Assembly (NCBI RefSeq): GCF_000025325.1
Contig: NC_013743.1
Location: 3,782,001 to 3,846,000 of the forward strand
Length of the DNA: 64,000 bases
Source of the DNA: Haloterrigena turkmenica DSM 5511
GTDB lineage: Archaea; Halobacteriota; Halobacteria; Halobacteriales; Natrialbaceae
Direction of reading: 5' to 3'
The notes beneath the pieces were generated by a model. That model was not told the origin of the DNA. It searched no databases and saw nothing but the letters and a program-made list of their open reading frames with translations. Below are positions 34,537-45,798 of this stretch, piece after piece. A program made the position numbers and the translations under genes. Each line of letters begins with the position of its first letter. Positions within the stretch are counted from its first letter, which is position 1.

Positions 34537-34626
34537 CGCGAGAGGATCGATCGTCACCGGAGCGACTGGAGTAGCGATCGGATCCGACCATCGGCGCGCA
34601 GCGTCGCGGCGAGCGATAGCGAGGCA

Positions 34627-34726
34627 CGAACGGAGTGAGTGACTCGCATGCGAGACGCGACGCAACTCGCGAGGGACGAGCGAACGAACGGAGTGAGTGA
34701 GGGAGTCGGCTGGGGAGGGTGTGGAA
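34627..34726 (+). repeat. Dispersed repeat with exact 16-bp direct repeats and G-rich tail
   Basis: CGAACGGAGTGAGTGA occurs at 34627-34642 and 34685-34700. Between them is the palindrome CTCGCATGCGAG (34643-34654). The tail at 34706-34726 (TCGGCTGGGGAGGGTGTGG...) matches 18 of 21 bases of the reverse complement of 44521-44541. The gcgaacga...ggagtgag motif also recurs on that strand of the 44.6-kb array and, more loosely, at 17770-17800. This indicates a family of intergenic repeats. Confidence 0.6.
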
Positions 34727-34831
34727 CTCCCCGTTGCCAGCGCGAGAAAGAGGGGCAGTACGTCTTCCCGTATTTCGATTGGGGACTACCTGTACCGTCG
34801 GTTCGACTCGGCGGGCGGCGAGTAGCCGCGA

Positions 34832-43828: not shown

Positions 43829-44419
43829 ATGGCTGACGAACTAAAGCGACGAGCCGTCCACGCGAGCGGGGCGGGACTGGTCGCGCTCTATCTCCTCGCC
43901 GCTCAGTTCGATCTCGGACTGACCTGGGATCGATTTCAGCTCCTGATGGGCCTCCTCGCGGTCGGGACGATCGCCCTCGAGTTCCTCCGGCTCTACGTCG
44001 GCCTCGAGTTGTCGCTCTACGACTCGCTGACCCGGGAGTACGAACAGAACCAGTTCGCCGGCTACGGCTACTACATGCTCAGCATGACGGTCGCCGTGTT
44101 GTTCTTCGAGCCCCGCGTCGCCCTCCCGGCGATGCTGATGCTCGCGATCGGCGATCCGATCAGCGGGACCGTCTCGGACGACAGCCTCAAGTTCGTCAAG
44201 GGGCCGAGGGTGCTGGTCACGATGTTCGTCGTCTCGGCGCTCATCGCCGCGCCCTTTCTCCACGAGACGCCGCTGGCCGTCGTCGCGGCCGCGATCGGCG
44301 CGACCGTCGCCGACGGCGTCAAACTCAGAATCGGCGACTACATCGTCGACGACAACCTGACGATCCCCATCTACGCCGGCCTGCTGGCGACGCTCGTCCT
44401 CGAGTTCGGGCCGGTTTAA
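43829..44419 (+). CDS. Dolichol kinase-like / polyprenol phosphate-metabolising membrane protein
   Basis: A 196-residue membrane protein with about six or seven helices, resembling the SEC59/DGK1/VTE5 group of CTP-dependent lipid kinases: ELKRRAVHASGAGLVALYLL at the N-terminus, then LMLAIGDPISGTVSDDSLKFVKGPRVLVTMFVVSALIA and AAIGATVADGVKLRIGDYIVDDNLTIPIYAG. The GDP and D(D)NLTIP motifs are typical. It probably phosphorylates dolichol or a similar polyprenol used in glycosylation. The substrate is inferred. Confidence 0.85.
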   Translation: MADELKRRAVHASGAGLVALYLLAAQFDLGLTWDRFQLLMGLLAVGTIALEFLRLYVGLELSLYDSLTREYEQNQFAGYGYYMLSMTVAVLFFEPRVALPAMLMLAIGDPISGTVSDDSLKFVKGPRVLVTMFVVSALIAAPFLHETPLAVVAAAIGATVADGVKLRIGDYIVDDNLTIPIYAGLLATLVLEFGPV

Positions 44420-44955
44420 AATTTATTCGTCCGATTTTCACAGTACAGGTGCGTCTTCAACGGTAACAGGAGTTGGGACGAACGGAAACACGCGTTCTAC
44501 TCATTCTGGCGGCTAGGGGTTGCCACTCCCTCCCCAACCGATTTCTCCTCACGGGTGCTTCGCACCCGTTCGGATGATTCGCGGAACCTTCGGTTCCGCG
44601 CTAACGCTCACTCCGTGCAGTCGTTCGCTCATCCACTGGAAGACGCTTCACGTCTTCCAAGCCGCTGTTCGCTCCGTCTGCTCACGGGCGCTTCGCGCCC
44701 GTTCGCATGGTATGCGAGACCTTCGGTCTCGCACTACTCACAGAGACCTCGCGCGGTATCGACGGCTGTCCTCACTCTCGATTACGGGTCACTTCGTTCC
44801 CCGTTCGCATTCGAGGTGCTCTCCAGTCGCACCTCGCTTCGCTCGGACAGCCGACAGCGCGCGCCACCGCAGAACGGGGTCACGGACTAGAGCGCAACGG
44901 AGAAAAGCGATAGTGAACGCGACTAAAACTACCGAAACCACGCTTCGGTCGCCGG
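44420..44955. other. 536-bp non-coding region dominated by a hairpin array
   Basis: It lies between the dolichol-kinase-like gene and the convergent ABC permease. 44521-44541 carries the repeat tail shared with 34.7 kb; 44551-44836 holds at least six hairpins. ORFs crossing it in several frames are serine/arginine-rich and are explained by the repeats. An AT patch after the stop (gtttaaaatttattc) may serve as terminator of the upstream gene. Confidence 0.65.
44521..44836. repeat. Hairpin array with a tandemly duplicated two-hairpin unit
   Basis: Perfect hairpins: H1 44551-44569 (8 bp), H2 44580-44600 (9 bp), H3 44637-44659 (9 bp, CTTCA loop), H4 44684-44702 (8 bp), H5 44713-44733 (9 bp), and a looser one at 44812-44836 (8 bp, 9-nt loop). 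H1, H2, H4 and H5 all have a TTC loop. H1+H2 and H4+H5 are a direct repeat about 133 bp apart with similar linkers (tcggatgatt, tcgcatggta). Stem differences are compensatory: T-A to C-G in H1/H4; three pairs in H2/H5. Confidence 0.75.
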
Positions 44956-45798
44956 TCAGAGGTCGGTCGTTCGGAACCGCCAGTAGCCGACACCGAGCGC
45001 GAGGACGATCCAGCCGGCCAGCACCGCGAGCGCGAACGCCGGCGTCTGGTAGAACGTCGGTTCCGGCGGCGGTCTGACGAACGTCCCGCCCTCGAGATCG
45101 GGAAAGAGCCCGGTGACGAGGTAGGTGTACGCCGCTATCGGATTCAGCGCGTCGACGAAGGCCACCCACTCGGGCGTCGTCGCGGGCCACGAGAAGCCGT
45201 GGGCGACGTAGAGCGCGATCCGCGGAAGCTGGGCCCACAGCTGGAAGAAGAAGAGCACGAAGACGCCGAACGCGGCGGCCGTCGCCCGGGTCGACGTACG
45301 GACGGTCGACGAGAGACCGACCGCGAGCGCGGTGAACGTCACGGCCAGCAGGACGAGGGCCGCGACGACGCCGGCGAACTGCGCGGGATCGACGGGCAGT
45401 CCCAGGGCCAGCCCCACCGGAACGGCGGCGACGAACGACACGACGATCGCCGCGGCGATCACGAGGCTCCGCGAGAGGAACGTTCCGACGACGACCGAGG
45501 CGCGATCGATCGGGAGGCCGAGGACCACCTTGAGGGCGCCGCTCGAGCGCTTTTCGACGACGGCGGACGCGAAGAAGGCCAGCGCCAGCAGCGGCGTAAC
45601 CATCGAGAACAGCGCGTACAGCCCCGTCGTCAGGGTGGGCGCGCTCCCGGACAGCCGCGCCGCCGTCCGCCCCTCGGAGTAGGTCAGGAGCGCGCCGAGG
45701 AGGACGTAGATCGCGCCCAGCATGTACACCTGCCGCTCGCGGACCGTGTCGAGCACGTCCTCGCGGACGAACAGCGCGAGGGCGGCCAGGTGACTCAC
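44956..45798 (-). CDS. ABC-2 type transporter permease
   Basis: A 280-residue membrane protein with six helices (about 28-48, 60-85, 110-135, 145-170, 180-200, 258-277). It has typical ABC-2/NosY-like features: an N-terminal amphipathic segment ALFVREDVLDTVRERQVYML, VVEKRSSGALKVVLGLPIDRASVVVGTFLSRS in the first cytosolic loop. It overlaps the upstream ATPase gene by 4 nt, so the two make one exporter. The cargo is unknown (drugs, lipids or a copper-chaperone-linked role as in NosFY are possible). Confidence 0.92.
   Translation of the reverse strand: MSHLAALALFVREDVLDTVRERQVYMLGAIYVLLGALLTYSEGRTAARLSGSAPTLTTGLYALFSMVTPLLALAFFASAVVEKRSSGALKVVLGLPIDRASVVVGTFLSRSLVIAAAIVVSFVAAVPVGLALGLPVDPAQFAGVVAALVLLAVTFTALAVGLSSTVRTSTRATAAAFGVFVLFFFQLWAQLPRIALYVAHGFSWPATTPEWVAFVDALNPIAAYTYLVTGLFPDLEGGTFVRPPPEPTFYQTPAFALAVLAGWIVLALGVGYWRFRTTDL

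Follow-up and report, generated by a model that had tools for sequence, protein, structure and literature searches.

A 60-bp two-hairpin module of haloarchaeal genomes that enters other repeats without target duplication and is nested in a larger palindromic element

The SMR-A repeats of Haloquadratum walsbyi (HqIRS42, HqIRS43 and HqIRS55) are about 110 bp long, have prominent terminal inverted repeats and cause no target duplication (PMC3119063). They insert in the near-terminal palindromes of PATEs and of IS605-type elements, and their mobilisation was described in 2011 as enigmatic (PMC3119063). The PATEs of Haloquadratum have no transposase, carry near-terminal palindromes akin to those of IS605 and are also inserted without a target duplication (PMC3119063). 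In the literature on haloarchaeal REP-like repeats, nothing nearer than this study was found to the locus examined here, which lies in a stretch of 64,000 nucleotides from Haloterrigena turkmenica DSM 5511 (contig NC_013743.1, positions 3,782,001 to 3,846,000), referred to below as the window.

A first-pass annotation of the window had described two pairs of hairpins, with a TTC sequence in all four loops and with stems that differ between the pairs at four base pairs, every one changed on both arms. The coordinates, the letters, the loops and each of the two-sided differences were confirmed (Table 1). A mechanical repeat search independently recovered the pairs as a 60-nt direct repeat with a spacing of 133 nt. 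Five of the 20 hairpins in the 64-kb window with a stem of ≥8 and a loop of 3 to 5 fell in the 200 bases of this region, and folding relative to dinucleotide shuffles gave z values of -10.6 as DNA and -8.4 as RNA. The observation of paired hairpins was thus correct and far above chance. The region is flanked by convergent genes, one ending at position 44419 and encoding an uncharacterised membrane-like protein and the other, with its stop codon at 44956, encoding an ABC-2 permease (gene calls were derived from our own composition score). No credible coding was found between these positions, in agreement with the statement that no protein explains the region, and a search of Rfam at the gathering threshold and at an E value of ≤1 detected no RNA family, the only match being to Yfr1 below threshold.

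Table 1. Features of the window element and of a second carrier in the window
Feature	Position in window	Strand	Remarks
Whole modular palindromic element (carrier), left to right end	44492..44871 (about)	+	Ends common to dozens of copies
Right boundary of carrier, CACCGCA		+	Same boundary suggested when L012 and its orthologues are aligned
Conserved left end (LE), TGGC..GGGG..CCACNCCCTCCCCAGCCGATT	44500..44543	+	Model R1, E 3.5e-12 here
Two-hairpin unit, copy A (H1, H2), 60 bp	44544..44603	+	Model R2, 80.2 bits
H1, ACGGGTGC-TTC-GCACCCGT	44551-44569		
H2, CGCGGAACC-TTC-GGTTCCGCG	44580-44600		
H3 hairpin, TGGAAGACG-CTTCA-CGTCTTCCA	44637..44659	+	In ~50-bp module
Two-hairpin unit, copy B (H4, H5), 60 bp	44677..44736	+	Model R2, 84.8 bits
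H4, ACGGGCGC-TTC-GCGCCCGT	44684-44702		
H5, TGCGAGACC-TTC-GGTCTCGCA	44713-44733		
Right end (RE), CCTCGCGCGG, terminal CAGCGCGCGCCACCGCA	44747..44871	+	Extra hairpins in its loop
RE hypervariable stem	44763-44771 with 44845-44853	+	Stem covariation across copies
Second carrier of the window, without two-hairpin unit	34588..34755	-	R1 match G000:C1:3816705-3816750

Beyond the first-pass annotation, each hairpin pair was found to form one 60-bp module (the unit) with its own mobility, and at the window locus the module was found inside a larger chromosomal repeat (the carrier), whose family has ends of its own. The annotation had named a lack of further copies and of covariation in homologues as refuting; both further copies and such covariation were detected. 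At least 44 matches to the unit were detected in the H. turkmenica genome, every one of them chromosomal; all 37 units located within 500 bp of a left end were inside the carrier in a single orientation, and the other 7 stood alone. Units were present in at least 48 of 61 relatives, many of which had no left end, and, across the class, in at least 86 of the 145 genomes sampled, representing 41 of 59 genera (here and below, counts of units and left ends from genome searches are lower bounds). An exact-pattern scan of 84,980 species matched 26 stretches, all of which were haloarchaeal. The module of two triloop hairpins is distributed across haloarchaeal genomes as one unit.

The covariation noted between the four hairpins of the window was real and extended across the family of units. 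In an alignment of 36 units from many genera, 99.0% of stem cells were paired, with 77 cells changed on both sides versus 2 changed on one side, detection in this first set having required mostly paired arms. A covariance-model search that did not require perfect arms gave 65 matches, relaxed on pairing but fitted to the model, in which 98.1% of stem cells were paired and two-sided changes outnumbered one-sided changes by 131 to 12. The covariation score was reached by none of 500 shuffles and by no slid register. Watson-Crick pairs accounted for 1262 of 1301 stem cells, and 14 G-T and 8 A-C cells were observed. The outer helix of hairpin 1 (T-G-C/G-C-A) starts close to the start of the unit, encloses a tandem TC/TC (GA/GA on the opposite strand) and also covaries (GC 25, CG 8, AT 2). 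The unit begins with TCTGCTCACGG and ends with ..CCCGCGCTA, and these ends are not inverted copies of each other. Both arms of every module stem are kept complementary. The loop of hairpin 1 may carry ~45 extra bases with further hairpins, a hairpin-within-hairpin architecture seen at L016:2921-3024, L025:3220-3322, L027:3411-3515 and L035:3056-3158.

The boundaries of the unit were set by comparisons of filled and empty sites. In this genome, the tnpB element of contig C2 (L151) is empty and ends in GAAGCCCC-ACCCTCAAGGAGCGAACGGC..GTGGGGTAGTTCAC, whereas the same tnpB end in another genome (L053), located beside an OrfB_IS605/TnpB gene, is filled and reads GAAGCCCC-(60-bp unit)-ACCCTCAAGG.. 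with identical flanks. The filled end has exactly 60 bp extra at the junction GCCCC^ACCCTCAAGG, so that the unit lies within the terminal palindrome of the tnpB element, between GCCCC and ACCCT. Locus L040 and its orthologue L139 differed by exactly one unit (CACTCACTCCG^TTCGTTCGC versus CACTCACTTCGCTCGTTCGC) and also by exactly one ~50-bp H3 module, which orthologues either have or lack, precisely, at the fixed site CTCATC^CCTCGC; a systematic survey of H3 stems gave only ten clear cases. No target duplication was seen at either pair of sites. The filled and empty pairs define the insertion points and not the ancestral state, and hence not the direction of gain or loss. The unit occurs in unrelated contexts, namely, the carrier, tnpB ends of two types and intergenic sites of Haloarcula and Halorientalis. 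The module thus enters other repeats and a tnpB-element terminal palindrome precisely and without target duplication. A hairpin, GAGCGAAC..GTGAGCGA, is common to the carrier and the tnpB ends. The Haloarcula and Halorientalis units (L172-L188) are located between CCACCTTTTTCGTCG and CGAAAAACGTGG, T and A tracts that form an outer inverted repeat and resemble T tracts at which convergent transcripts end.

Domain searches of the four contigs of this genome (C1-C4) detected 13 matches to TnpB (Cas12f1-like TNB) and one decayed fragment of a Y1 transposase. No match to the Y1_Tnp domain was detected in five other genomes with 32 to 78 left ends each (G001, G002, G004, G043 and G031). A Y1 transposase was rejected as the present mobiliser and is not supported as a present requirement, because several copy-rich genomes have no detectable Y1.

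A search of the H. turkmenica genome with positions 44500-44900 gave at least 74 matches at ~40 places. When placed side by side, these copies shared the conserved left end and an RE hairpin ending in CAGCGCGCGCCACCGCA, with optional hairpin modules between the two and lengths of about 145 bp to about 420 bp among measured copies. Local pairing was rejected as the basis of the left end; GTGGCAA..TTGCCAC at this end pairs in only part of the copies, and model R1 was built without structure because conservation there is mainly at the level of sequence. R1 detected at least 93 left ends, all on the 3.89-Mb chromosome (C1) and none on the other replicons (1.55 Mb; p about 4e-14). Of these, 32 were arranged head to head, as 16 pairs, and neither tail-to-tail nor tandem pairs occurred among the R1 matches in the genome. 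The left ends of the head-to-head pairs were often 60 to 90 bases apart. Relatives of the same genus had between 55 and at least 96 left ends per genome, and occurrence outside the genus was patchy. The module is nested in a larger modular repeat that, in this genome, is confined to the chromosome.

Carrier copies were located between convergent genes in 19 of 46 cases, compared to 30 of 154 other gaps. The second carrier of the window is likewise between convergent genes, and its orthologous copy in two relatives has an extra inner hairpin that is missing here. Many copies occupied the same location in several species; in G002 the orthologous gap measured 53 bp and lacked the window copy, and in that of G005 neither a left nor a right end was detected. 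A clean empty site for the whole carrier was found neither at the window locus nor at L012, as the flanks had diverged too far or additional insertions were present. Downstream of the carrier at L012 is another palindrome-rich insertion (GCGGTTACCCGCCGGAGCGGGGTGAAACCCCGCGG..GGCAAAAG), which is missing from four relatives. Compared with two species, locus L036 carried a whole head-to-head pair in inverted form between its right ends, with an identity of 87.6% with the inside flipped versus 72.4% in direct alignment. The orthologues of L036:2975-3383 are L075 and L098, and L098 lacks the spacer as well as both left ends, right end there meeting right end.

The RE hairpin has a conserved loop (TCRCTNNYGYTC) and a 10-bp stem that differs in nearly every copy yet is paired. 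Over the ten inner pairs of 63 copies, 546 of 630 cells were Watson-Crick, compared to 250 expected from shuffled arms, a figure that is somewhat inflated because a copy was included only if at least 5 of its 10 pairs formed. When 39 copies were aligned without gaps, two-sided changes were seen at every one of the ten pairs. Double-sided cells numbered 105, compared to 28.5 after shuffling, and slid registers were far lower. At orthologous sites, the stem was often replaced wholesale and not altered pair by pair. An excess of A-C cells (28) over G-T cells (8) was detected in RE stems (P 0.004), a bias that might point to a folded minus-strand RNA. The difference in the units was not significant and in the opposite direction, and a shared strand asymmetry of wobble pairs was rejected as RE stems and units point opposite ways.

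The pairing evidence was weighed between a functional RNA and a palindrome maintained as DNA by comparison of the unit loops. In 60 distinct units, 22 types of H1 loop (GAA 20, TTC 6, plus 20 other types) and 16 types of H2 loop (TTC 26, GAA 4, plus 14 other types) were found. The reverse complement of a loop type was also present for 18 of 22 H1 types (P 0.0002) and 10 of 16 H2 types (P 0.0004), and such loops recurred on an identical stem; for example, GGGCGC carried GAA/TTC, GCA/TGC, GTA/TAC and AAA/TTT. Full inversion of a loop with concurrent changes in the arms is a predicted footprint of DNA template switching, whereas in rRNA hairpins GAAA outnumbers its reverse complement, UUUC, 99-fold (PMC8794818). 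The first-pass annotation had based its preference for a DNA-level role on the GCGAAGC mini-hairpin, an argument that fails because unit loops vary and flip and no strand-specific GAA loop is conserved. A role as DNA or palindrome-correcting mutation, both among the readings that it had offered, was the better reading on other grounds: the inverted loop pairs, the rarity of wobble pairs and the lack of an Rfam match favour a mobile palindrome acting as DNA, copied partly through template switching, over a functional RNA. A structured RNA or structured 3' UTR transcribed from the minus strand, with stems covarying under selection for the fold, would account for the strong covariation in units and RE stems and for the A-C excess of the latter. 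Read on this strand, tandem GA flanks the stems, and G..A stands in the tetraloop position of 24 of 41 RE loops of twelve bases. However, strict GNRA tetraloops were rejected, the third position being a purine in only 9 of the 24, with no purine bias; the A-C excess is missing from the units, whose loops, varying and inverting, are unlike those of rRNA, and which are found in unrelated contexts. We consider a structured RNA quite improbable. A folded minus strand, either RNA or single-stranded DNA, retains some plausibility from the minus-strand bias of RE stems and the GA repeats beside them.

Three further explanations were considered. One is a chromosomal structural element similar to BIMEs, in which a cruciform or hairpin serves bidirectional termination, nucleoid organisation or supercoiling; the exclusively chromosomal left ends, the enrichment between convergent genes, the retention of several copies at orthologous sites and the TTTTT and AAAAA tracts around the Haloarcula and Halorientalis units are consistent with it. 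We consider this quite unlikely: close species differ in presence, at the window site as elsewhere, distribution in the family is patchy, such a role needs no mobility into tnpB ends, and insertion is also safest in convergent gaps. The modules could instead have spread solely through gene conversion or ectopic recombination among copies, without the unit being mobile, and module swaps at fixed carrier sites, the wholly different RE stems at many orthologous sites and the inversion at L036 point in this direction. The same 60 bp is nevertheless found in two types of tnpB end and at carrier-free intergenic sites in Haloarcula, contexts that homologous exchange between carriers does not explain, and recombination as the sole process appears unlikely. 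It is rather doubtful, finally, that the repeats are remnants of a once active IS200/IS605-type family that was moved by a Y1 TnpA and is now inactive. The clean insertions without target duplication, the link to tnpB ends and the imbalance between TnpB and Y1 domains in the genome would suit such an origin, but no element combining these ends with a tnpA gene was found, and decaying stems should gain one-sided changes, which are rare.

The explanation that we regard as likely is a haloarchaeal, transposase-free mobile palindrome system operating at the DNA level. The module would be handled as a folded single DNA strand, and a putative activity would join it into hairpin regions. Template switching during replication may rewrite one arm from the other, sometimes flipping the loop, and the arms would stay paired because of this arm-to-arm copying, probably helped by selection for a palindrome able to fold and by exchange among copies; an RNA product would not be required. 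We infer template switching from these patterns and not from a dated event. The lack of a Y1_Tnp match in copy-rich genomes, the A-C excess of RE stems and the location of many carrier copies at the same site in several species, which also fits a retained function, count against this explanation. A more far-reaching version is a tentative possibility, in which nested hairpin modules throughout the class would leave their sites, or be copied, in the form of folded single-stranded DNA and would be joined into other hairpins without Y1 or target duplication, template switching being both the copying and the arm-correcting step.

The unit is a tractable case in which selection for a fold and palindrome-correcting replication can be tested as sources of covariation, a distinction that matters wherever covariation is taken as proof of a functional RNA, and it is a good place to ask how hairpins are copied and stay perfect. 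In relation to known systems, the unit resembles SMR-A in being short, non-coding and present in dozens of copies per genome (PMC3119063), in its insertion without target duplication (L151/L053 and L040/L139) and in its location within the terminal palindrome of an IS605-type tnpB element, as well as inside a PATE-like carrier. It differs in its length, which filled and empty sites put at 60 bp and not about 110 bp, and in having two tandem triloop hairpins and no terminal inverted repeat; as this length and the lack of terminal inverted repeats set it apart from the SMR-A description, it was not classed as SMR-A. The carrier is similar to PATEs in being transposase-free, non-coding, intergenic and heterogeneous (PMC3119063), with a palindrome beside its right end, and in being targeted by short repeats. 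Unlike PATEs, it has a recursive module architecture, head-to-head pairs and a hypervariable paired RE stem. No tnpA/tnpB element was found to have its ends, and comparison of orthologous loci gave no clean empty site for the whole element. The repeats share with the REP, BIME and REPIN repeats and their RAYTs an intergenic palindromic nature, about 100 copies, a composite structure and alternating orientation (PMC3116915, PMC2817692), but they are haloarchaeal, larger and branched, and the Y1 domain is missing from several copy-rich genomes. The unit comes with exact insertion sites, a covariance model and a contrast between two-sided and one-sided changes. Overall, the unit is a compact, palindrome-targeting small mobile repeat with a class-wide distribution, whereas those described earlier came from one haloarchaeon (PMC3119063).
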